From positions 930,001 to 994,000 of the forward strand of contig NZ_JAGTAS010000058.1 in NCBI RefSeq assembly GCF_025685425.1: a stretch of DNA of 64,000 nt, in the 5' to 3' direction. Below, one piece after another: positions 439-55,818 of the stretch; the stretch's first letter is position 1; every line of letters starts with the position of its first letter. The notes under the pieces were generated by a model that worked only from the letters and a program-made list of their open reading frames with translations, was not told the origin of the DNA and did no database searches. The position numbers were made by a program, and so were the translations under genes. The stretch is from Terriglobus albidus. GTDB taxonomy: Bacteria > Acidobacteriota > Terriglobia > Terriglobales > Acidobacteriaceae.

Positions 439-469
439 GGCAGTTGCTGGTTCCTGGTTGCTAGTTGTT
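439..469 (+). repeat. Heptamer array, left arm (family F)
   Basis: Begins at the base after the stop codon of the preceding gene. Consecutive 7-base units GTTGCTG, GTTCCTG, GTTGCTA, GTTG. It is nearly the reverse complement of the array at 536-575, which carries one additional 7-base unit. Confidence 0.75.
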
Positions 470-501
470 CAGTCTCGTATAACGATTGTGGATTCAATAG
501 G

Positions 502-531
502 AAAGCGTGGTCCGTCGGATCACGCTTTTGG
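502..531 (+). terminator. Intrinsic terminator between the small membrane protein and fabD
   Basis: Stem AAAGCGTG (502-509) pairs with CACGCTTT (521-528), followed by a short T-rich tail. It sits in the loop formed by the two inverted heptamer arrays at 439-469 and 536-575. Confidence 0.65.
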
Positions 532-535
532 CTTT

Positions 536-575
536 TAACCAGCAACCAGGAACTAGCAACTAGCAACTGCCCTCC
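536..575 (+). repeat. Heptamer array, right arm (family F)
   Basis: Units read AACCAGC, AACCAGG, AACTAGC, AACTAGC, AACTGCC: the reverse complement of the left array at 439-469 with one extra AGTTGCT unit. It ends about 15 bases before the fabD start. Confidence 0.75.
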
Positions 576-2532: not shown

Positions 2533-3285
2533 ATGCGCGCGCTTGTTCTCTCTGATATTCACGGAAGTTTGGAAGGCTTAGAGGCTGTTCTCGAAGCCGC
2601 CGGGGCCGTCGACAGGATATGGGATCTCGGGGATGTCGTTGGTTACGGCGCCAGCCCGAATGACGTCGTTGAAAAGATTCGCGCAGTTGGCTCGCTGCAT
2701 GTCCGCGGTAACCATGACCGTGTCGCCGCCGGCCTGACCTCTTCCCTGAACTTCAATCCCATCGCCCGTGCAGCCGCTCTGTGGACACAGGAGGCTCTCT
2801 CGCCCACCAACATGGATTGGGTACGCGCTATGCCGCAAGGCCCCCTCTACCCCGAGGGCGTTGCCGTAGCTTGCGTGCATGGCTCCCCGCTCGATGAAGA
2901 CGACTACATCCTCAACGTGCGCGATGCGTGGGCTCCCTTGCAACAGATGCAGCAGCCGCTCACCTTCTTCGGTCACACCCATGTGCAGGGAGGCTTCATC
3001 CAGCAAGGCACCGCCTGGCGCGAACTGATTCCCGAGTACCGCTCCCGCGAAGTCGCCGAGACCTGGGTCCTGAAGCTCGACCCAGAGTGCCGCTACCTCA
3101 TCAATCCCGGATCCGCCGGCCAACCCCGCGACGGCGACTGGCGTGTCGCCTGCGCGATCTATGACACCGACGAAGCCACCATCACCTTCCACCGCCTTCC
3201 CTACGACATCATCAAAGCGCAGGGCAAGATTCTGATGGCAGGACTGCCCGATAGGCTGGCTATTAGGTTGAGGGACGGAAAGTAG
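2533..3285 (+). CDS. Calcineurin-like metallophosphoesterase
   Basis: 250 residues beginning MRALVLSDIHGS. The metal-binding motifs appear in order: DIHG, LGDVVGYG, RGNHD, VHGSP and FGHTHVQ, then NPGSAGQPRDGD typical of the YfcE/MPE-type phosphodiesterases. This supports a cytoplasmic dinuclear-metal phosphoesterase; the natural substrate cannot be read from sequence. The start at ATG 2533 puts the SDIHG strand at the very N-terminus as in the family; an upstream in-frame GTG at 2482 would only add an unconserved extension. Confidence 0.88.
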   Translation: MRALVLSDIHGSLEGLEAVLEAAGAVDRIWDLGDVVGYGASPNDVVEKIRAVGSLHVRGNHDRVAAGLTSSLNFNPIARAAALWTQEALSPTNMDWVRAMPQGPLYPEGVAVACVHGSPLDEDDYILNVRDAWAPLQQMQQPLTFFGHTHVQGGFIQQGTAWRELIPEYRSREVAETWVLKLDPECRYLINPGSAGQPRDGDWRVACAIYDTDEATITFHRLPYDIIKAQGKILMAGLPDRLAIRLRDGK

Positions 3286-3288
3286 AGC

Positions 3289-3325
3289 GAGTTAAAAGTT
3301 GCGAGTTAAAAGTTAAAGCGTTAAT
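3289..3325 (+). repeat. Heptamer array, left arm (family F)
   Basis: Units AGTTAAA, AGTTGCG, AGTTAAA, AGTTAAA, GCGTTAA start four bases after the metallophosphoesterase stop codon. The 10-base GCGTTAATGC is mirrored at 3361-3370. The pair lies exactly between two convergent genes and could fold into a long stem. Confidence 0.75.
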
Positions 3326-3360: not shown

Positions 3361-3393
3361 GCATTAACGCTTCAACTTTCAACTTTCAACCGC
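3361..3393 (+). repeat. Heptamer array, right arm (family F)
   Basis: Reads GCATTAACGC followed by TTCAACT, TTCAACT, TTCAACC. It is inverted relative to 3289-3325 and ends three bases from the stop of the minus-strand patatin gene, so each arm abuts one stop codon. Confidence 0.75.
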
Positions 3394-3395
3394 TT

Positions 3396-5642
3396 TCAAA
3401 AAGAGCGGCCAATGGTAAAGCTCAGCTTCCTTCTCCCTGCATCGCCGATCGCAGGACCGAAGCTGATCACACCCAATGGAGTCTCTGCCAGCACGCCGAA
3501 CATGACGTCCTGGCGTAGGAAGCTTGAGACTGGCTGCGCATAGTCTGTGCCTGTGACACCGATCGATCGTGGAGCGCGCATCTGGCCTGCCTCATATGCA
3601 ATCGCCAGATAGATGTTCTGTCCCAGAGGATCCGGCAGCTTTGCGATCCTGCGTAGATACGCCTCGCGAAGGTAGAAGTAATCCGTTCCGCGATACTCCT
3701 CGAAGGCCGAGGCGGAGAGCCTCCCAGGCCCACCCAGCGTGAATCGATAAGGCTGCGCCACGTCGCGATTGAACAACGTGCCACCTTCTACGGCAGCGAG
3801 GAAAGTGTTGCCACCGATGGTATGAGCGAACTGAAACTCGCCGACGACGCGCGGAGCCGCTGCCGCCTGCTCGCCTGCCTTCAGATAGCCGGCCCCCAGC
3901 TTGTACTGAAAACCACGCTGCGCCACCTCAGCACGGTCCTGTCCGTCGTGGGCGTAGCGCACATCGAAAAGATGCGCCACCTGCGATGAGTCGCCCTGGC
4001 CATCGTTGCCGGTCTTCGTCACCCAGCGCTGGCTCCAGGCTTGCCAACCCGCGCGAAGCTCGCTGTTATGGCTGAAGGTATATCCAAGATCGACACCGCC
4101 GCCGCCGCGCTGCCACAGCCTCTCCGATAGGCGGTCCTGGTCGTGATAAATGAAATACGGCCGCCGGGTAAACTCTCCATGCGGAGCGAGAAAGAGACCA
4201 CGTGTATTCAGCAGGCGATAGTACTCAAGATCAAATTGCTGTAGCCAGCCCAGCTCCACGGTGCCGCGAAGTTCCGAGCCATACCGTCCGAAGTCCTGGT
4301 GCAAATACGTCAGGTCGAGCGTAAAGCGGGGGGTCTGACCCGACTGCGCCTGCCCATTGATGCCGATAAGAATGAACGGAGGCCCGTTCTCCTTATCAGT
4401 CAGCTTCACCGTGATATCCGCATCGCGCACACCACGGATAGGTCCCGACGGATAGCTGACCTGGTAGGTCGCCTCGTAGCGTTCATCCGCCCGCAACTCA
4501 TCCAGCGGTTTGTCGATGACAGTGGCTTCCGCCGGCTGGCCTACCAGCTTCTGCAACTTATGCTCCACCGCCTCCTTCACCTCGTGATTATGAGTCTCCA
4601 CCTTGATGGAGGCGATGTTGCGCGGCTTGTCCGCCGTCCTTGAAGCCCGGCTCGCAAGATACGCCGCCCACTCCGTGTCGGAGACCGTGTAGGCCATTAG
4701 CTTGTCCTTCTGCGCCTCGGTTGCGTCGTAGCCAAGCTTCACCAGGTCTACAGCTTTGCCGTAGTCCATCACCGTCAGGTCGCCGGTCTGCGGCTCGATG
4801 ACGACATCCGCCAGTCGGCGTGACTGCAGCTCGTTGCCCCAGATCGCCACTGAGAACGACCTCTGCAACGTTCCCAGCAGGCTGCCGCCGCTGTTCGGCG
4901 CCAGCTTGGTCAAAGGCATCGAGACCGCGAGAATCACATCGTCATGCAGATCGGATTTCAACGTCTGTGTCGGCAGGTTCTCAAGTACGCCCCCGTCTAC
5001 ATAGGTGTGTCCGTCTCTCTGCACGGGGGGAAAGATTCCCGGTAGCGCGATGGAGGCGCGGATCGATTCCGGCAGCGATCCGCGCGCGAACACCACCGGC
5101 TTGCCCTCGGTGATATCCGTCGCAGTACAGCGGAACGGAACCGACAACTGGTCGAAGCTGGTCTTGTCGCCATACGACAAGAACTGCGCCGAAAGGAAAG
5201 CATTCAATCCGGCATCGACCAGCAGGCCATTGCGAATGCTGATGCCATGCTTCAGGCCGATGGTCATGTAGTTGGGTGCGCTACGGCGATCTTCGCGCCG
5301 GCGATAGTTCAACGCGCTGAAGTCGTTGGAAAGGCGAAAGACCTTGGTCAGCACCTCATCGGTGGTCAACTGCTGGATCTCATCCGGCGTATGGCCGGTC
5401 GCATAAAGCCCGCCGATCAGCGCTCCCATACTGGCGCCCGCGATACCGTCCACAGGGATGTGGTGTTCCTCCAGCCAGCGCAACACACCGATCTCTGTAA
5501 GGCCAAGCGCACCGCCGCCACCGAGGGCCAGACCAATCTTCTTCCGCTCAGGCTGGGGTGTGGGTACTGCTGTCTGTGAGGACAGCGGCGTGGTGCAGAG
5601 TGCAGCCGTGAGGAGGGCCGCTACGGTCGAACGTTTCCGCAT
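3396..5642 (-). CDS. Patatin-like phospholipase with POTRA and outer-membrane barrel (PlpD/type Vd-like)
   Basis: 748 residues. Signal peptide (residues about 1-24, MRKRSTVAALLTAALC). Patatin domain about 35-330: oxyanion loop GGGGALG (41-47), nucleophile Ser71 in GASMG and catalytic Asp216 in DGG, so the Ser-Asp dyad is intact. A POTRA-like stretch (about 340-440) precedes a C-terminal region of alternating barrel strands ending TIGRSF with the terminal aromatic residue favoured by the BAM machinery. Known relatives (PlpD of Pseudomonas) are type Vd secreted lipases; here cleavage and export of the lipase are inferred. Convergent with the metallophosphoesterase. Confidence 0.9.
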   Translation of the reverse strand: MRKRSTVAALLTAALCTTPLSSQTAVPTPQPERKKIGLALGGGGALGLTEIGVLRWLEEHHIPVDGIAGASMGALIGGLYATGHTPDEIQQLTTDEVLTKVFRLSNDFSALNYRRREDRRSAPNYMTIGLKHGISIRNGLLVDAGLNAFLSAQFLSYGDKTSFDQLSVPFRCTATDITEGKPVVFARGSLPESIRASIALPGIFPPVQRDGHTYVDGGVLENLPTQTLKSDLHDDVILAVSMPLTKLAPNSGGSLLGTLQRSFSVAIWGNELQSRRLADVVIEPQTGDLTVMDYGKAVDLVKLGYDATEAQKDKLMAYTVSDTEWAAYLASRASRTADKPRNIASIKVETHNHEVKEAVEHKLQKLVGQPAEATVIDKPLDELRADERYEATYQVSYPSGPIRGVRDADITVKLTDKENGPPFILIGINGQAQSGQTPRFTLDLTYLHQDFGRYGSELRGTVELGWLQQFDLEYYRLLNTRGLFLAPHGEFTRRPYFIYHDQDRLSERLWQRGGGGVDLGYTFSHNSELRAGWQAWSQRWVTKTGNDGQGDSSQVAHLFDVRYAHDGQDRAEVAQRGFQYKLGAGYLKAGEQAAAAPRVVGEFQFAHTIGGNTFLAAVEGGTLFNRDVAQPYRFTLGGPGRLSASAFEEYRGTDYFYLREAYLRRIAKLPDPLGQNIYLAIAYEAGQMRAPRSIGVTGTDYAQPVSSFLRQDVMFGVLAETPLGVISFGPAIGDAGRRKLSFTIGRSF

Positions 5643-10425: not shown

Positions 10426-11310
10426 ATGCGGCGCTTTTTCTCCCTTTCTACTGCCCTGCTTGCCTTGTTCTGCCTGGCGATCTTTGCCCAAGGCCAGTCC
10501 ACCGAGGCCGCCCTCGGAAAGCGCCTCATCGGCCGGCAGTTCCTGCTGCGCGGCTGCTGGCAGGGCGCGAACCTCTGGTTCACCGCTGACGGTCGCCCGC
10601 TGAACGACTATCCGGAGCTGCCTTTCACCCTCGCCGGAGTCAAAATCGACCACATCAAGCTGCTCAAAAACGGTCTCCAGATCGAAGCACATCGTATGGG
10701 ACTGGAGATCGACGCCAAGGCCCGCGGAGCGGTCCGCTGGGTGCCTATCACCCTGGCCGACGGCCCCGTGGATCGCACCGGAGCCGAGCCTCTCCAGTTC
10801 CACATCAGTCCGCCGGTCTCCGGTGACTACACGGCCGCCCTGGACGCTATCTTCGCCGACAGCGTCAATGAGCTGGCTCCCCGCCTGCCTGCCTACTGGC
10901 AGACGGCCGCCACCCAGTTCTTCGGCCAGAACGAGGCCCCGCTACCTGAGGCCTTCCGCCTACACGGCCCTGACCTGAAGCACTATGCCTCCCTGGGTAC
11001 CTTCTCCGGGCAGGACCCGGCGCAGGCCGCCTCCGGCAACACCGCTCAGCCAACCCTGCTCTCCGGCGCCAACCCGGACTTCACGCCCGCCGCCCGGCGA
11101 TTGAGATACGCTGCCGTCGTCATCGTCCGGTTCACCGTCAATGCCGACGGCTCCGTCAGCAAACCGCAGATCGCCCAGCCCGCAGGCCTTGGCCTGGACG
11201 AAGCTGCTGTGGCCGCGGTGCTCCAATACCGCTTTCGGCCCGCTTCTGTTAGTGGCACGCCTCAGCCCGTGGAAATCGGCACTGCAATCCGGTTCGCACT
11301 AGGGAATTGA
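10426..11310 (+). CDS. Exported protein with C-terminal TonB-like domain
   Basis: 294 residues. Signal peptide about 1-22 (MRRFFSLSTALLALFCLAIF), a central region of unknown fold, and a C-terminal TonB-C domain of about 80 residues: VIVRFTVNADGSVSKPQI, then LDEAAVAAVLQYRFRPA. No N-terminal TonB membrane anchor with proline-rich spacer is present, so it is a periplasmic stand-alone TonB-C protein rather than a classical TonB. Its stop codon overlaps an octamer repeat array. Confidence 0.75.
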   Translation: MRRFFSLSTALLALFCLAIFAQGQSTEAALGKRLIGRQFLLRGCWQGANLWFTADGRPLNDYPELPFTLAGVKIDHIKLLKNGLQIEAHRMGLEIDAKARGAVRWVPITLADGPVDRTGAEPLQFHISPPVSGDYTAALDAIFADSVNELAPRLPAYWQTAATQFFGQNEAPLPEAFRLHGPDLKHYASLGTFSGQDPAQAASGNTAQPTLLSGANPDFTPAARRLRYAAVVIVRFTVNADGSVSKPQIAQPAGLGLDEAAVAAVLQYRFRPASVSGTPQPVEIGTAIRFALGN

Positions 11311-11332
11311 AAAATTGAATGATTGAAGAATG
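11305..11332 (+). repeat. Octamer array overlapping a stop codon (family F)
   Basis: ATTGAAAA, ATTGAATG, ATTGAAGA, ATGGAATG in succession. The TGA stop of the preceding gene (11308-11310) is part of the first unit. Confidence 0.65.
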
Positions 11333-11369
11333 GAATGAGTTCTGTCTAGACGGCCGACCGACCTCGGAC

Positions 11370-14343: not shown

Positions 14344-14673
14344 ATGCGATTCTCATGGCTGGCCGGGGCAATCCTGGCTGAAGTCTGCGCCACCTCCGCT
14401 CTCAAGCAGGCCAATGGCTTTACTCGCCTGCTTCCGTCCCTCGTGGTCGTTATAGGCTATGGCGTCGCCTTCTACTGTCTTTCCCAGACGCTCAAGACCA
14501 TTCCCGTCGGTCTCGCCTATGCGATCTGGTCCGGTGTCGGCACAGTTCTCATCGCTCTGGTTGGATGGCTCTTCTACCACCAGAAACTCGACCTCGCCGC
14601 CATTCTCGGCATGGCGCTCATCGTCAGCGGCGTTCTGGTACTGAACCTCTTCTCCAGCACGGTTGGCCACTAA
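14344..14673 (+). CDS. Small multidrug resistance (EmrE-type) transporter
   Basis: 109 residues, four spans. Glu13 in [14 protein letters not shown] corresponds to the proton/substrate-binding Glu14 of Emr[16 protein letters not shown] is the SMR signature in span 3. Overall it resembles EmrE closely rather than ArnE/ArnF flippases. It starts 12 bases after the membrane glycosyltransferase, suggesting one operon, although an efflux role would not need that company. Confidence 0.9.
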
Positions 14674-14701: not shown

Positions 14702-14741
14702 ACCTATTCAACCATTCAACGATTCCAACGTTCAACCCTTG
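14702..14741 (+). repeat. Octamer array (family F)
   Basis: ATTCAACC, ATTCAACG, ATTCCAACG, TTCAACC between the SMR gene and hemE; reverse complement of the GTTGAATG-type units at 11305 and 25674. Confidence 0.55.
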
Positions 14742-19303: not shown

Positions 19304-22300
19304 CTACAGGCAGGAATATGCCCACGTATACGTTGTAGAAGCAGCAAGAGCTGAGGCGACACCAATCGTCCATGTGGTGGTACTTGGTGCCGTAGTGTAG
19401 ATCGAAGATGCCATTGGAGCTGTCGTCGCATCCCGTGCCTGCAAATGGCAGCCGTTTGGAGTAAGGGTCAACGTCCCGCTGAACGTTATTGTTGCAAGAG
19501 TTCCGGTTGTCGTCCCCGCGCCAGTCGTGCAGGTAATGACGCCAGCCGTGTTTCCACCGGTGATCGTGGTGCAAGCAGGCGATGTTCCCGCAGCGGCGCC
19601 GGCAACCATCGTCGGTACTGCGCCGCCTGTGGTTAGCAGATTCGAGCCAAGGCCTTGAACTCCTGTAATCGGATTCGATGTATTGTTGAAGAATTCGATC
19701 GATGCCTGTTTGACGCCAAAGACAGCCGTGTTAGCTCCCCGCAGCAGAGCAAGATAGCCTCCATAACCAGAATCCGAATTGATATGGATCAAAGCTCCAC
19801 CGCTGGGAGCTGCATTCACTGCGCTCGAACGAAACTCGAAGGCTCCGATTGTTCCTGTGTAGTTTGATGAAGAGCTCTGGATACGAATGGTGGAATTTGT
19901 AAATGAGAATGGTTGCAAGTTTACAGGCTGAAGAAAACTAAACTGTGCATTTGCAAAAGTTCCGGCGCATCCAGCTTGAAATCCCCAGCTCGTACTGGCT
20001 CCGATGTTAAGTGTGCAGTAATTAGCAATACTTCCATTGTCGAGAATTTTCCATTGCACACCATGACTGGTTCCAAAAATTGATCCCCGTTCGAGATATG
20101 CATCAGAATAGGTCCCAGTTCCTCCATCGAACACTCTGGCAGCGAATACCTGAAGAGGATCAAGAAGGCCCGTTGGCCCATTAACACGAATATTGCCGGT
20201 AGGAATCCAGGCTGCCGCTGAGTAGCCGGTGCCACTTTGACCAATGTCGTACATACATGTCGGCGTTGTGGCGTTTGAAAATGACTGCGTTTGCTGCACC
20301 ACCGACGCTCCGGTATATCCAGACTTTCGAATCAGCGCCATCGAAGTGGCTCCGGGGATGGTGTTCGGCAAGCACACCTGGATATAGTTCGAACTGCTAA
20401 GAGTTGTCGGTCCGTTTGTGACAGTAAAATCAGGACTGCAGCCAAAGGGGTTCAGATTGAAATTATTGCCGGCACAGATCGCGTAGGTGGCCGAGGTTGA
20501 TCCCGGATTTGGAACGTAAGAGGTCAGAGCGCCGATCGTCGTCGCGCGACTGAACAACACCCCATCTACACCAAAGGTCCCGGCACTCACCAAAAAACGA
20601 TTGGCTGACGCGGAGTCTACATACAAGCCATGTCCCCCGCTTCTGAGGAAACCTAGTCCTGGCCGAGTCGCTGCCCCTTGACCTACATGGATTGTAGTTT
20701 GAGCCCGGCTCTCAAAAAGGTCCTGTGATGGGATGCCTCGATTTGCTTGAAAAAGACCGTTGAGATAGGCCTGTCCTGCTCCGTCTACATGAACTGAGTC
20801 GGTAGAGGTAAAGGCCCGGCGGTTAGCGAATTCCTGACCTGAAGAATTTGGGTAATTTATATCCACGTAGTAGGCATTTCCGCCACCACGATTGATTTGC
20901 TCGATCGCATTCATTGCATCACGGTCCACGTCTCTACCAGCCGATGGATCAGTAATGAATCCATTCGTGTAACTACTGATCCATTCAATGTCAGGTGTGT
21001 AGGCATTGCAGACGGACGAAGTTGTATTCCACCAATTGCCTGCGGCTTCACATGCACTCTGAGTGCTGATTGAGGACACCTTGTTAGACTGCAGGTTTAT
21101 ACCGCGCGTATTCCACTGCTGCACCCAATAGTTGATGGGGTGCCCGGCCATCTGCGGGTTGTCGAGGTATTCAATCAGAACCGTGTCCGGGGCAGGGATA
21201 GCTTGATAAAAACCGTTAAGATAACTACTGGGTGCGGCAAAATCATCATTGAGTCCGCTGCCACCAAACCCCAGGTCCTCATAGACAACTCCGGCGGTAT
21301 TCGGATCGTACTCCTCCCAAGCAAAGACTTTCACGCTGCTGCCGGATTGATTGGTAATCCGTATGCGACCGAGACCGTCATGTTGCAACGTCACGGCCTG
21401 AATGGACATGTTCGATGTAAGGATGTTGCTGAAGGTCGGATTGACCGAACAAGTTCCTCCGCCAGTGCGGGCGATCGTGGTCGTGTAGGGATCGTAACTG
21501 CTGCCACCGGAGGTAACTTCAACCCACGAGACTCCACCAGAGGAATTGATGTGCCCAATGCCGGAGAATCCTGATCCCCCACCACCCGAGGCTCCAAGGG
21601 TAATGTCCGCCGTGCAAGTACCGCTGCCAGTTCCAGCAACTCCGATGGCTACAATCGAGCCAGTTGTCGCGCAAGAAGATGGCTGCGTCCAGGTCACAGG
21701 CTCTGAGAAGTAATTCTGGTTGTCGGGCGAGTAGCTGATATTGAAAGCTCCATGGCCGTCGCACAGGTAAAAGAGTTTGAACTGCGGCATCGGGCGGTAC
21801 GTAGTATCCGATCCCAAAGTGGTCGCGACCATATAGACATCGAGTTGTCCGGTGGCTGAGGAACTTCCGATGGTGAGGGATGATCCATTGGGACTGGTTG
21901 GATCGGGGGTTCCATTTGGACTTATTACTGTCGTGCCAGAACGTACAGAGTTCAGTCCAAAAGCATCTTGGGTTAGGCCATAATACTGGTTATTATTCTG
22001 CGTCCCAGCATGGGCCGCCGTCGTCACCACCCCCGATACACCAACACCCAGACTCCTTTGCAGGATGGTCATCTGGTTTGCAAACTGGTTGACTGAATCC
22101 CCTGCAGACATAACGATCCATTGCGGCACGGCGGGGATTCCCATGTTAGCGAGATTCGCTCCGTTGCGCGCGAGCTCAATCATCTTAAGCTTCATCTCGG
22201 CTTCTTTGGGATGGTATTCAATACGCTCATAGCGGGGTTGAAAGAGAACATTGGCGCGAGCTGATCCAAAAGTTGCTCCCGAGCGTCCATCTGTTAATTG

Positions 22301-22912
22301 AGAAGTGCAGGTTGAGATCAGATAATTGACCGAGGTCGAGAGGGTGTCAGTCACCGTAGAATTTGCCGGAACATACACGTCCAGGTTAGGAGATGCAGCG
22401 CAGGCTGCTGTATAGGCTGCCTGGATTGTCGTGTAGGTAGCACCATCGGCAACGACCAAACCGAGGGAACTCGTGCCACTGCTGCCGCCTCCGGAGATCA
22501 GGTTGTAGTTTGCTCCATCGGAGACTGCAATCCCCGTCTGGCCGCTCGCGATGCAGGCAGCCGACCCTGTGGATCCCTTGACGCAAATTTGCTGTGCTCC
22601 GGAAGATGTGTTCTTCACGAAGACAGCACGGCCGGGAGACAGTGGAACAATAATGTTTCGCGTAGCCGTCAATGGCACAGAGCTCGTGACGATGAAGGTG
22701 CCACGATATGGCCCGTCACCGGATGGAACCGTACACGCGCCTGCAGGCGTCATGACATCGCAGTCCGCGTCGGTCATCACAAGCGATGACATGCCGTGGT
22801 CTGAGTCTGTAGTTGATGTAACTGTAGTGTGGGCGTTCAGGGAAACCTGAGCCCATGACGATATGGAGCAAAGCCCTATAGCTGTTATCAGGGCAAGGAT
22901 AGATTTACGCAT
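19304..22912 (-). CDS. Very large secreted protein with SGNH-hydrolase-like motifs
   Basis: 1202 residues. Signal peptide about 1-21 (MRKSILALITAIGLCSISSW). GDS at 271-273 (IVMSAGDSVNQ) and a DSVH dyad (Asp705, His708, in STDSVHVDGAGQ) look like blocks I and V of SGNH/GDSL esterases, with a long insertion between them. The remaining two thirds are Ser/Thr/Gly/Asn-rich beta-type sequence, very poor in Lys and Arg, ending TYTWAYSCL. No membrane anchor or cell-wall signal is visible. RBS AAGGAGAAAT. Base composition is visibly more AT-rich than neighbours, suggesting recent acquisition. Catalytic activity is inferred only. Confidence 0.65.
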   Translation of the reverse strand: MRKSILALITAIGLCSISSWAQVSLNAHTTVTSTTDSDHGMSSLVMTDADCDVMTPAGACTVPSGDGPYRGTFIVTSSVPLTATRNIIVPLSPGRAVFVKNTSSGAQQICVKGSTGSAACIASGQTGIAVSDGANYNLISGGGSSGTSSLGLVVADGATYTTIQAAYTAACAASPNLDVYVPANSTVTDTLSTSVNYLISTCTSQLTDGRSGATFGSARANVLFQPRYERIEYHPKEAEMKLKMIELARNGANLANMGIPAVPQWIVMSAGDSVNQFANQMTILQRSLGVGVSGVVTTAAHAGTQNNNQYYGLTQDAFGLNSVRSGTTVISPNGTPDPTSPNGSSLTIGSSSATGQLDVYMVATTLGSDTTYRPMPQFKLFYLCDGHGAFNISYSPDNQNYFSEPVTWTQPSSCATTGSIVAIGVAGTGSGTCTADITLGASGGGGSGFSGIGHINSSGGVSWVEVTSGGSSYDPYTTTIARTGGGTCSVNPTFSNILTSNMSIQAVTLQHDGLGRIRITNQSGSSVKVFAWEEYDPNTAGVVYEDLGFGGSGLNDDFAAPSSYLNGFYQAIPAPDTVLIEYLDNPQMAGHPINYWVQQWNTRGINLQSNKVSSISTQSACEAAGNWWNTTSSVCNAYTPDIEWISSYTNGFITDPSAGRDVDRDAMNAIEQINRGGGNAYYVDINYPNSSGQEFANRRAFTSTDSVHVDGAGQAYLNGLFQANRGIPSQDLFESRAQTTIHVGQGAATRPGLGFLRSGGHGLYVDSASANRFLVSAGTFGVDGVLFSRATTIGALTSYVPNPGSTSATYAICAGNNFNLNPFGCSPDFTVTNGPTTLSSSNYIQVCLPNTIPGATSMALIRKSGYTGASVVQQTQSFSNATTPTCMYDIGQSGTGYSAAAWIPTGNIRVNGPTGLLDPLQVFAARVFDGGTGTYSDAYLERGSIFGTSHGVQWKILDNGSIANYCTLNIGASTSWGFQAGCAGTFANAQFSFLQPVNLQPFSFTNSTIRIQSSSSNYTGTIGAFEFRSSAVNAAPSGGALIHINSDSGYGGYLALLRGANTAVFGVKQASIEFFNNTSNPITGVQGLGSNLLTTGGAVPTMVAGAAAGTSPACTTITGGNTAGVITCTTGAGTTTGTLATITFSGTLTLTPNGCHLQARDATTAPMASSIYTTAPSTTTWTIGVASALAASTTYTWAYSCL

Positions 22913-25532: not shown

Positions 25533-25673
25533 GAGTCTGTGGTCTCCAGAGGTTTCAGCGCAGCGAAAAGCGTGGCTGGGTTTGCTAGAGAAGTATATCG
25601 GGGGAGTGCTGAAGGAATGTAGTGAAGATATCTCGCGAGGTGAGATTCAGTGATGCGCCCGCGGTGCCGCGTT

Positions 25674-25702
25674 TTGTTGAATAGTTGAATGGTTGAATGG
25701 GT
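25674..25702 (+). repeat. Octamer array (family F)
   Basis: TTGAATAG, TTGAATGG, TTGAATGG in tandem, 145 bases from the nearest stop codon. Confidence 0.55.
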
Positions 25703-25758
25703 TTGTCATCCCGCAGGGATCTGCTTTTTGGGCTCAGAATCACCTGACGCCCTGGGTA

Positions 25759-33255: not shown

Positions 33256-33780
33256 ATGCGCAAGATTCTTATCGCCGCCACAGCCGTACTGCTCTCACTT
33301 CCGCTTTCCGCCCGAGCCGATGAAGCCAGTAAGCGCGCCAAGATCGAAGAGATGCTGACCGTGCTGAAGATGGAAGACAATTTCACTCTCCTGATGAAGC
33401 AGGTGGAGCAGCAGGGCCGGCAAATGGGGATGTCAATGACCAACCCGTCGCAGTTAACCGATGCCGACAAGAAGATTCTGGACAACTTTATGACCAAGCT
33501 GATGGCCGCAATGCAGGAGACGATGGGATGGCAGAAGCTGAAGTCAGAGTTCATTGATCTTTATGCCAAGGCCTACACCGAGGAGGAGGTCGATGGCATT
33601 CTGACCTTCTATAAATCTCCTGTGGGGCAGTCTATGCTCACCAAAACGCCACAGTTGGTGCAGCAGTCGATGGCTATCAGCCAAACGCACATGAAAGAGA
33701 TCCAGCCGAAGCTGGAGCAACTCACCGACGATCTGAAGAAGGATCTGGATGCCGCGCATGCGGCGAAGCCGAAGCCCTAA
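33256..33780 (+). CDS. Exported DUF2059 protein
   Basis: 174 residues. Signal peptide about 1-22 (MRKILIAATAVLLSLPLSARA). The helical domain contains DLYAKAYTEEEVDGILTFYKS and VGQSMLTKTPQLVQQSM, diagnostic for DUF2059. Periplasmic, function unknown. Cotranscribed with the OPT transporter (four-base gap) and ended by a clear terminator. Confidence 0.88.
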   Translation: MRKILIAATAVLLSLPLSARADEASKRAKIEEMLTVLKMEDNFTLLMKQVEQQGRQMGMSMTNPSQLTDADKKILDNFMTKLMAAMQETMGWQKLKSEFIDLYAKAYTEEEVDGILTFYKSPVGQSMLTKTPQLVQQSMAISQTHMKEIQPKLEQLTDDLKKDLDAAHAAKPKP

Positions 33781-33815
33781 GAGGCAGTTACTGGTTGCTA
33801 GTTCCTGGTTGCTGG
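33781..33815 (+). repeat. Heptamer array (family F)
   Basis: Starts at the base after the stop codon: GCAGTTACTG, GTTGCTA, GTTCCTG, GTTGCTG. It directly precedes the terminator stem; no inverted partner is present on the far side. Confidence 0.7.
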
Positions 33816-33820
33816 ATGAA

Positions 33821-33850
33821 GGCCTCGCGTGAGCGAGGCCTTTATCTTTC
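33821..33850 (+). terminator. Intrinsic terminator of the OPT-DUF2059 operon
   Basis: GGCCTCGC (33821-33828) and GCGAGGCC (33833-33840) with a GTGA loop, then TTTATCTTT. The 260 bases from here to the next gene hold only the promoter at 34045 and nothing else that I could recognise. Confidence 0.88.
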
Positions 33851-53732: not shown

Positions 53733-55469
53733 TTGGCATCGCCGAAGAAGCCTGCAGGATTTCTGACATTTACGTTGCATTCTCACCTGCCTTACGTGGT
53801 CAACCACGGCACGTGGCCACATGGTATGGAGTGGTTACATGAGGCAGCGGCCGAAACGTACCTTCCGCTGCTACGCGTCCTTGGACGTCTTGAAAAAGAC
53901 GGGCTGGCACTCAAGGCGAATATCAACCTCTCTCCAATCCTGCTGGAGCAGCTCTCCCATCCTATCTTCCGGGCTGAGTTCCCGAAGTATCTCGAACGCA
54001 AGATTACCGCCGCTACGGAAGACGAAGCCTTCTTCATTCAGGGAGGCGAGACGCACTTCGCGGAAAATGCCCGCTTCTGGCGAGCGTTCTTCCAGGAAGC
54101 GCTCGATGACTTCAACGCTCTCGGCGGCGACATCATCAAGAGCTTCCGCCACTTCAACGACAAAGGCCTCATTGAGATCATCACCTGTGGCGCGACCCAC
54201 GGGTATATGCCTCTGCTGGGAACTGACGAGAGTGTGCGTGCGCAGATCCGCACGGCGGTCGCCACCCATAAGCGGCACATCGGCAAACATCCGCGTGGTA
54301 TCTGGGCGCCCGAGTGCGGCTATCGTCCAGCCGGCTTCTGGAACTACCCCGTACCCGACGCCGATGGAACCACACATCCCGGCTACGATCGTATCGGGGT
54401 TGAACAGGCTCTCAGCGAATCGCAGATCGAGTACTTCTACGTCGATACTCATCTGGTCGAAGAGTCGGAACGCATTCCTTCGCCCTACGAATTGCTCAAC
54501 GGACACGTCCCGCGGGACGAAGCCACCATCCAGATGACCTTCAATAACCATCGCGGGCTCTATCAGCCGTACTACGTCGATGGTCCTTACGACAAGCGTT
54601 ACGCCGCGACGATCTTCCCGCGCGATCCACGCACCGGCCTGCAGGTCTGGTCCGGCGAAAGCGGCTATCCGGGCGACTCCAACTATCTCGACTTCCATAA
54701 GAAGCGCTGGCCCGGTGGCCATCGCTACTGGCAGGTGACCGGCCCTAAGCTGGATATGGCCTTCAAGATGCCATACTGGCCGCAGGAAGCCGCCGAAAAG
54801 GTCAAGGAACACGCCAGCCACTTCGTGCACCTGGTCTATGAAGCGCTGAAAGATAGCTTCAACGACCCCATCCCGCCGATTCTCTGTGCACCCTTTGACG
54901 CCGAGCTCTTCGGCCACTGGTGGTTCGAGGGTCCCCTCTGGCTCGAAGCCATCGCTCGCACGCTGGCCGAATACCCCATCGGAATTGAGCTCATCACCTG
55001 CTCCGAGTATCTCGACAAGTACCCGCGCGCGGGCTTCATCTCGATGCACGAAGGTTCATGGGGCGTCGAAGGCACCAACCATGTGTGGATGAACCCGGAG
55101 ACCTCCTGGACCTACAACCACATTTATTCCGCTGAACTGTACACCCGCGACGTCGCAACCGCCGGCAAGTGGAAAGATGGTGGTCTCGGCGAACGCATCA
55201 TGAAACAGCTCTGCCGCGAGTTGCTGCTGCTTGAGTCTTCCGACTGGCAGTTCCTCATCACCACCGGAGCCGCACGCGACTACGCCGAAAAGCGATTCAA
55301 CGTGCATAACGAGCAATTCCTGGAGATAAAAGGCATCTGGCAGGCCTTCGAACAGAACGGCTCTCTCAACGAAGCCCAGGACCGCCGCCTCTCCGAACTC
55401 GAAATCAGAGACTCCGTCTTCCCTGATATCGACCCCAGCTTCTGGGCCGCAGGCGCTAAAGCCAGTTAA
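53733..55469 (+). CDS. GH57 1,4-alpha-glucan branching enzyme-like protein
   Basis: 578 residues, TTG start behind an AGG. GH57 barrel: LTFTLHSHLPYV (motif 1), GATHGYMPLL (motif 2), GIWAPECGYRP with nucleophile Glu194 (motif 3), and APFDAELFGHWWFEGP with acid Asp389 (motif 4), plus the C-terminal helical region DWQFLITTGAARDYA diagnostic of the branching enzymes. Makes alpha-1,6 branches in glycogen. No other glycogen genes are adjacent. Confidence 0.9.
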   Translation: MASPKKPAGFLTFTLHSHLPYVVNHGTWPHGMEWLHEAAAETYLPLLRVLGRLEKDGLALKANINLSPILLEQLSHPIFRAEFPKYLERKITAATEDEAFFIQGGETHFAENARFWRAFFQEALDDFNALGGDIIKSFRHFNDKGLIEIITCGATHGYMPLLGTDESVRAQIRTAVATHKRHIGKHPRGIWAPECGYRPAGFWNYPVPDADGTTHPGYDRIGVEQALSESQIEYFYVDTHLVEESERIPSPYELLNGHVPRDEATIQMTFNNHRGLYQPYYVDGPYDKRYAATIFPRDPRTGLQVWSGESGYPGDSNYLDFHKKRWPGGHRYWQVTGPKLDMAFKMPYWPQEAAEKVKEHASHFVHLVYEALKDSFNDPIPPILCAPFDAELFGHWWFEGPLWLEAIARTLAEYPIGIELITCSEYLDKYPRAGFISMHEGSWGVEGTNHVWMNPETSWTYNHIYSAELYTRDVATAGKWKDGGLGERIMKQLCRELLLLESSDWQFLITTGAARDYAEKRFNVHNEQFLEIKGIWQAFEQNGSLNEAQDRRLSELEIRDSVFPDIDPSFWAAGAKAS

Positions 55470-55505
55470 GAGTTAAAAGTTGCAAGTAAAGTTAAAAGTT
55501 AAAGA
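55463..55505 (+). repeat. Heptamer array overlapping the GH57 stop codon (family F)
   Basis: AGTTAAG, AGTTAAA, AGTTGCA, AGTAAAG, TTAAAAG, TTAAAG. The TAA stop (55467-55469) is part of the first unit. Confidence 0.75.
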
Positions 55506-55533
55506 GGGACGGCATCGGTTGCTGTCCCTTTTT
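55505..55533 (+). terminator. Intrinsic terminator of the GH57 gene
   Basis: AGGGACGGC (55505-55513) pairs with GCTGTCCCT (55521-55529), followed by TTTTT. It follows the heptamer array immediately. Confidence 0.8.
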
Positions 55534-55541
55534 GCTTTGCC

Positions 55542-55815
55542 CTAAAGGGAGGAAGCAAGCCGCTCAAATTCGATGCCCGGTCTGCCCAAAGGCCTCCATC
55601 GTCAGAGAAGCACCGCTTTAACTTTTAGCTTTCAACTTTTAACCAGGCCAGAGACCCTGTCCGATCCAGACACATTCAATGGCAGCAGCCATCACCCATT
55701 TGCTTTACCCTTAAAAGATGGAGCAAATCGCTCCATTCGATCATCGGTGTGCCTCAACAGCTCCCATCACCACAGAGGCACCGCTTCAACTTTTAACTTT
55801 CAACTTTTAACTCTT
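55542..55815 (+). repeat. Two diverged direct repeats ending in heptamer arrays
   Basis: Two copies (about 55542-55647 and 55707-55815) share CCCTAAA/CCTTAAA, CAAGCCGCTC/CAAATCGCTC, ATTCGAT, AGAAGCACCGCTT/AGAGGCACCGCTT and end in arrays TTAACTTTTAGCTTTC / TCAACTTTTAACTTTC. The second array ends four bases before the next gene's ATG. This fills the 349-base gap. Confidence 0.65.
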
Positions 55816-55818
55816 CCA

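Follow-up and report, generated by a model that had tools for sequence, protein, structure and literature searches.

Elements of the REP/BIME type, with their RAYT transposases, are inverted repeats at the 3′ ends of genes and are not known to contain heptamer arrays. The original description of the STRR repeats is reportedly that of Mazel in 1990. According to the available part of one account (PMC2670836), the STRR of filamentous cyanobacteria are usually 7-bp tandem repeats, intergenic and capable of forming hairpins, and there is no mention in that part of stop anchoring or of an exchange of words, i.e. of unit sequences. The window analysed here, a stretch of 64 kb (C28:930001-994000) from a genome (G000) of 6.10 Mb in 58 contigs, contains arrays with the unit length of the STRR, but the host group differs, the named relatives closest to one window protein being Acidobacteriaceae and other acidobacteria.

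TAACTGA direct repeats occur in Beggiatoaceae, Cyanobacteria and Bacteroidetes (MacGregor 2015, PMC4679880). As far as the available text of that paper goes, they resemble the arrays in G000 in being degenerate heptamers, mostly intergenic and within nucleotides of a codon boundary; their complement, TCAGTTA, also has a GTT core, as have the G000 arrays. By contrast, in the main genome of that study the repeats lie mostly just upstream of start codons, with single cases directly after a stop and one reported inverted repeat. Such placement before starts in AAC orientation is not a feature of G000, where, among 100 arrays, one lies within 6 nt of a divergent start (AAC orientation) and one has its end no more than 6 nt before the next start on its own strand. 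The same text describes differences between two Cyanothece strains that are mostly 7-nt indels, and a range of coexisting heptamers in Microcystis, so that several words side by side are in themselves nothing new; it describes no replacement of one word by another at orthologous sites.

The closest precedent is provided by the G-rich GGGAATC and GGGGA(C/T)T heptamers of Xanthomonas and Nostoc, which are discussed as G-quadruplexes (Rehm et al. 2015, PMC4692102, available in part). The 7-nt unit is common to both systems, G000 having period 7 in 45 arrays and period 8 in 27, as are proximity to the coding-strand stop and convergent inverted pairs. The preference for four units is shared by two G000 word families (7a and 7b, see below), but not by three others (7c, 8a and 8b). 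Unlike the heptamers of Rehm et al., the G000 units are without G-tracts able to form a G-quadruplex, several words and octamers are present together, and the word differs at orthologous stops; the available text of that paper does not report word-for-word exchange. No paper on word exchange, or on such array architecture in acidobacteria, was recognised in the open-access literature.

Array sites in the window, in the genome and in other genomes

The array sites of the window are collected in Table 1. A sequence-only reading had proposed heptamer units that begin one base after a stop codon, run into a terminator and return inverted. At site A (439-575) the array and its inverted return exist, and the arm pair folds at z -10.2, but the GTT units start 4 nt, not one base, past the stop (TAG 436-438). 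Between the arms lies a 12-pair hairpin, a similar hairpin being found, along with the array, in the congener G015. A terminator between arms is not general; a consensus terminator scanner listed nothing across 439-575, and terminator-like matches around sites A and B are at chance level (3 found versus 2.2 expected). The arrangement from stop to stop between convergent genes, proposed for site B, was confirmed, and in two congeners (G002 and G012) octamers stand at this site instead of heptamers.

An inverted pair had also been read at 33781-33850; the site has one arm only, followed by a terminator-like hairpin, and no inverted partner was found within 300 nt. The array proposed at 55463-55533 exists, but its inverted arms lie outside that stretch; this array was found by TRF and missed by the stricter period scan because it contains indels. 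The stop codons said to lie within arrays, TAA at 55467 and TGA at 11308, do so, though in the second case the array is one of octamers. Two tRNAs were the only Rfam matches in the whole window. Between 19300 and 24100 two gene callers disagree, with many short ORFs versus one 3.5-kb minus-strand gene (19304-22777).

Table 1. Arrays and hairpins located in the 64-kb window (window coordinates)
Feature	Position	Strand	Sequence	Context
Site A, left array	439-471	+	GTTGCTG GTTCCTG GTTGCTA	heptamers; units 443-467; sense strand
Site A, hairpin between arms	502-528	+	AAAGCGTGGTCC-GTC-GGATCACGCTTT	12 pairs; read by eye
Site A, right array	534-575	-	word as in left arm, inverted	
Site B, left array	3290-3317	+	AGTTAAA/AGTTGCG	heptamers; 4-nt spacer from stop 3283-3285
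Site B, right array	3362-3392	-		near stop of convergent gene 3396-5642
Octamer array	11303-11336	+	ATTGAATG type	includes own gene's stop TGA 11308-11310
Octamer array	14704-14735	-	GTTGAATG on - strand	tandem gap; antisense, 30 nt past stop 14671-14673
Octamer array	25669-25707	+	GTTGAATA/GTTGAATG	antisense; gap separating two - strand genes
Single heptamer array	33786-33822	+	GTTACTG GTTGCTA GTTCCTG GTTGCTG	5-nt spacer from stop 33778-33780
Terminator-like hairpin	33820-33841	+	AGGCCTCGC-GTGA-GCGAGGCCT	directly 3′ of array 33786-33822; by eye
Imperfect array	55464-55504	+	AGTTAAA	includes stop TAA 55467-55469
Inverted array	55615-55645	-	AGTTAAA word	partner of the 55464 array
Second inverted array	55782-55818	-	AGTTAAA word	immediately before next called gene (55819)

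Periods of 4-30 were scanned in 864 kb of G000, comprising 464 kb of contiguous, unselected sequence (the window and the 400 kb before it) and 400 kb in 20 stretches picked for containing hits, with third-order Markov shuffles as the control. The shuffles contained no array of period 7 or period 8, compared with the 45 and 27 in G000; period 14 was found in 14 arrays versus 1, and period 16 in 19 versus 0, the other raised periods being mostly multiples of three and codon-like. A skeleton pattern, i.e. GTT at four positions with a spacing of seven, had 158 hits in the whole genome, overlaps counted, versus 10 for its reversed control. One 50-kb stretch of E. coli K-12 contained no arrays, versus 2.8 per 50 kb on the window's own contig. 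The observation is real and genome-wide. The array finder requires about four units, so claims about unit number rest on a separate run count; strict unit patterns miss imperfect octamers.

The skeleton is present in 46 of the 61 genomes searched as relatives and in 79 of 149 genomes of the phylum, G000 being included in both sets. In many genomes the reversed control is equally frequent, which suggests that other words are used there. In four other genomes (G059, G036, G055 and G051), for which stretches were chosen for hits, other words occur, e.g. GGCTGTR, GTGACRA, TCAGGTG and GTTTCRA. The arrays of G059 and G036, the latter from another family than that of G000, are often at stops and paired, whereas G055 fits less well; arrays inside called genes number 16 of 42 in G036, 3 of 29 in G059, 0 of 13 in G055 and 0 of 6 in G051. 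Skeleton hits far above those of G000 occur in genomes from other families of the phylum (2975 in G104, 1058 in G115 and 978 in G189). The reversed control is as high as the skeleton in G115 and G189, and among the hits listed for G104 and G115 most are of the GTTCGGG/GTTCAGG type.

Position, unit number and pairing of the arrays

Gene ends were taken from our own hexamer-based caller, 'inside a gene' being defined as >30 nt from both gene ends and the sense strand of an array as its GTT/TTGA strand. The arrays of G000 are neither at random distances from stops nor within genes, in keeping with the sequence-only reading: none of 100 lies inside a called gene, 42 start between -6 and +6 nt from a sense stop (3.4% expected), and 61 are within -20 to +30 of one (the null, for -6 to +30, being 8.6%). 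In the unselected 464 kb a sense stop is no further than 6 nt away for 15 of 26 arrays (binomial p 5e-16 against the null of 3.4%). This anchoring, although strongly supported, is not universal; the other 58 of the 100 arrays are more than 6 nt from any sense stop, and for 31 the upstream neighbour is a start rather than a stop, many of these being second arms of pairs. A single array of the 100 approaches a convergent stop from the wrong side to within 6 nt.

Within 37 tandem gaps the first array is in sense orientation and within 6 nt of the stop in 16, whereas 20,000 draws from a null based on the free length of each gap average 2.6 and reach 11 at most. Short empty gaps, considered as the full cause of anchoring, fail to explain it in long tandem gaps. 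They may account for some convergent gaps, e.g. the 8-nt gap of genes 268/269 in G017. For eight of nine control families of intergenic k-mer repeats, at most one copy is found 10 nt or less from a stop; the ninth is a palindromic repeat considered below.

The offset of the first unit was recorded for 66 runs from G000 and G002 stretches, 20 of which overlap and supply the stop codon, with 28 starting at 1-8 nt, 7 at 11-15 and 11 at 18-34. In 10 of these last 11 runs a hairpin, identified by eye, lies between stop and array, and the array begins at the hairpin foot or within a few bases of it; two of the ten cases are orthologues and one hairpin is imperfect. A small hairpin of the form GAGCGCC..GGCGCTC recurs, by eye, immediately 5′ of GTTGAAA/GTTAAAA arrays at C25:100358, C18:142703 and C18:108885 of G000, so some hairpins are part of a dispersed module.

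G000 holds at least five word families, i.e. the heptamers 7a, GTT[GC]CT[AG], 7b, GTT(GA/AA/GC)A, and 7c, GTT(GC/AA)C, and the octamers 8a, GTTGAATN, and 8b, ATTGAATN, the units of which differ by one base. Units such as GTTAAAA, GTTGCTA and GTTGAATG contain no GGG. A provision of stops in all three frames was rejected as the purpose of the arrays, since several words (GTTCCAG, CAGTTCT) contain no stop. The intergenic runs of 7a peak at four units (10 runs of two units, 4 of three, 21 of four, 3 of five and 1 of eight), as do those of 7b (27 of two, 13 of three, 31 of four and 1 of five). There is no such peak in 7c, 8a or 8b, octamer runs decaying with unit number and 7c being sparse with two long runs; coding DNA contains almost exclusively single units.

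Of 34 inward-facing pairs, 29 have one word on both arms (a mean of 6.8 being expected by chance), the other five comprising one true mixture and four pairs with an unlabelled arm. In 7a (p 0.84), 8a (p 0.92) and 8b (p 0.63) the two arms of a locus resemble each other no more than arms from separate loci do, with 7b at p 0.02, on 5 to 9 pairs in each of the four families. The lack of raised within-locus similarity in three of the four speaks against recent arm-to-arm copying, and arm-to-arm correction was rejected on this ground. Strong folding is the rule among close pairs: in 18 of 19 the z value is below -3.4 and the arms form 18 to 35 base pairs with each other, while the remaining pair, itself doubtful, has z -0.4. 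The proposal of an expanded 3′-end signal is in part consistent with these results, in that pairs are predicted to form strong hairpins. However, no partner within 300 nt was detected for 33 of 61 stop-anchored arrays, a few of which have one further off, so the hairpin cannot be the whole function.

Word differences at orthologous gene ends

A feature invisible to the sequence-only reading is that the word changes between species at fixed positions. The congeners of G000 are G002 (one contig, 6.4 Mb), G015, G012 and G017; in the first 3.6 kb of the window the nearest relatives share ~85% identity, too little for clean empty sites. At 379 orthologous gene ends of G000 and G002 an array is present in 39 and 29, respectively, and in both at 24, versus 3.0 expected. 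On the unselected contig (235 gene ends) the respective values are 12 and 11, with 10 in both versus 0.56 expected. The second G002 sequence set was chosen for hits. Part of the co-occupancy could come from permissive sites, although restriction of the 379-end comparison to tandem gaps of at least 60 nt leaves 12 versus 1.6. No above-threshold array is present in G002 at 15 of the 39 array-bearing ends of G000, some of which have weaker arrays there.

The word labels, assigned by a simple rule, agree at 9 of the 24 doubly occupied ends and differ at 15. Two of these differences (C28 190 and 222) were labelling errors on inspection and were corrected by eye, so that 13 of 24 ends, in 11 gaps, carry different words, three of the 13 (268, 269 and C18 51) being differences of 8a versus 8b only. 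At C18 gene 4 the place of a lone heptamer array in G000 is taken in G002 by one of octamers, with equal gap length, homology in both flanks and 136 aligned bases in either species, and at gene 365 both arms differ between the two species around a similar hairpin. Site 316/317 has four words in four species, i.e. GTTGCTA in G000, ATTGAATN octamers in G002, GTTAAAA/GTTGAAA in G015 and GTTGTCA/GTTAACA in G017. Orthologous stops in congeners often keep an array while the word differs, even heptamer versus octamer.

By gene identity G015 and G012 are sisters (92-96% over four genes); the next relative is G002, followed by G000, and G017 lies outside these four. The sisters disagree in word at all three sites with data for the four ingroup species; G000 and G015 are divided from G002 and G012 at 321/322 and at C18-103, and G000 and G012 from G002 and G015 at C18-100. 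Where words match, centres or downstream sequence look homologous by eye at 321/322 and C18-103, and, in the case of the 7b pair, at C18-100. Over the last 60 coding bases the sisters are 95% (321), 91% (322), 96% (C18-103) and 87% (C18-100) identical. At C18-100 these bases track the word (G012-G000 97%, G015-G002 90%, G015-G012 87%), and in gene 322 G015 is closer to G002 (95%) than to G012 (91%), so interspecies transfer may explain part of the word exchange; at 321 and C18-103 neither a sign of transfer nor a long recombination tract is evident in the last 60 coding bases. The words at these sites have the appearance of long-standing alternatives, distributed without regard to the species tree through repeated exchange, through transfer or through lineage sorting.

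Long perfect AGTTGCC runs occur in G002 (17 units at C1:607051 and 19 at C1:614267) and G015 (12 units at L174:3926). Those of 17 and 12 units are at the C18 gene 100 site, which has another word in G000 and G012.

Origin and possible role of the arrays

The explanation that we favour, if tentatively and at slightly less than an even chance, is that the arrays are dispersed four-unit modules, which form word-indifferent 3′-end stems when paired and which spread by short-tract copying. Each array would be a copy of a module built from about four degenerate units of 7 or 8 bases, many copies lying directly after a stop codon, or after a hairpin that follows the stop, with the G/T-rich strand as the sense strand. 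Two facing copies of one word would make the stem of a 3′-end hairpin, the loop of which would be private to the locus. Any word pairs with its own inverted copy, so the stem would work regardless of the word, and related species could retain an array at a gene end even as one word gives way to another. Paired arrays would then act on mRNA as 3′-end stems in termination or protection, in both directions between convergent genes, and selection would keep arrays at gene ends. The words would move by short-tract copying from other arrays, by template switching or gene conversion via the shared GTT core, without a dedicated transposase. The earlier suggestion of a spreading repeat holds as to the spread, since identical unit words recur at dozens of loci; no candidate for a targeting enzyme was found among the two families tested (Y1 and RVT_1).

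A broader proposal, which we think unlikely, is that of a rewritable gene-end module, i.e. a stop-anchored four-unit array in which copying machinery that would recognise reading-frame ends or hairpin feet substitutes the word in situ, simultaneously in the two arms and even between periods of 7 and 8 nt. The Xanthomonas, Nostoc and Beggiatoa repeats would then be instances of one widespread, G-quadruplex-independent system of word-indifferent gene-boundary arrays.

The strongest rival to the dispersed, word-indifferent modules, possible but in our view doubtful, is that non-autonomous mobile elements (MITE- or REP-like), with the arrays as their ends, insert at stops or terminator hairpins, the word changes being repeated insertions by different element families at hot spots. 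Consistent with this rival, 7b arrays frequently share an extension, GACGTACGGCATGGGTG or GCGTTAATGCATGGGTG, mirrored on the opposite arm (by eye), and 7b centres are similar in 3 of 21 comparisons between loci; the hairpins that separate stop and array in 10 of 11 runs at offsets 18-34 may be read in the same way. Furthermore, another palindromic repeat of G000 (k-mer GCATTTTCCCTG) has 12 of its 47 copies no more than 10 nt away from a stop, ten at a distance of 1-2 nt, which suggests that insertion at stop codons takes place in this genome. By contrast with MITE copies, which share an interior, the centres of the other families are unrelated in nearly all comparisons, some of them of orthologous G000/G002 pairs (similar in 0 of 15 for 7a, 0 of 3 for 7c, 1 of 45 for 8a and 0 of 55 for 8b, or 1 of 118 pooled). 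In some cases, too, one array simply stands in place of another between species, in gaps of the same length. In REP/RAYT systems the repeats lie on either side of a Y1-type transposase gene, whereas none of the ten Y1 transposase loci of G000 (3.2-3.4 kb each) holds an array, and G017 carries arrays but has no Y1 match.

An origin from RAYT/REP elements was rejected on the basis of these ten Y1_Tnp loci and of Y1 counts, which do not clearly track how abundant arrays are across the genus. A reverse-transcriptase origin is likewise not supported as far as the RVT_1 family goes, there being no RVT_1 match in four array-rich genomes (G000, G002, G012 and G015). A resemblance to integron attC sites was discarded as the orientation is opposite. 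The palindromic repeat itself, AGAGCATTTTCCCTGT...ACAGGGAAAATGCTCT, is found at C19:118629-118929 of G000 (L060) and, in G002, at the orthologue of C18 gene 18; it resembles a MITE that targets TA and restores TAG.

That the arrays are ordinary microsatellites, generated by polymerase slippage in tolerant intergenic DNA, is decidedly improbable. The long perfect AGTTGCC runs of G002 and G015 point towards slippage, and a proposal that heptamers reflect it is cited in the available part of Rehm et al. (PMC4692102), but there is a four-unit peak rather than a decay in two families, a few identical words recur at dozens of loci with inward pairs sharing a word, and arrays are anchored to stops within tandem gaps.

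It is very improbable that the arrays serve to bind a regulator, of DNA- or RNA-binding type, that recognises repeats with GTT. In Streptomyces, direct heptamer repeats are important to the DNA binding of SARP regulators (PMC5930380), and Beggiatoa TAACTGA repeats have been proposed to bind a post-transcriptional regulator (PMC4679880), as stated in the available portions of both papers. In the present case, however, the word and even the period differ at one gene between congeners, and the arrays lie behind the stop rather than before the start. Chance or ordinary terminators, over-read from the sequence, have next to no probability; hairpins do lie between some arms, and the terminator-like matches at sites A and B are at chance level, but the absence of arrays from the shuffles and the 50 kb of E. 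coli, and the p value for anchoring, already refute this rival, as the sequence-only reading had maintained.

The four-unit, stop-adjacent heptamer architecture is thus separable from the G-quadruplex, although the closest paper ties the two together, and its presence where G-tracts are missing points to another cause. A change of word at a kept position falls outside the explanation published for similar repeats. It also becomes testable why heptamer repeats persist in the intergenic DNA of bacteria. The word differences at fixed gene ends between congeners constitute a natural experiment, in which any function that outlasts a complete change of word must lie in pairing or position, not in sequence.
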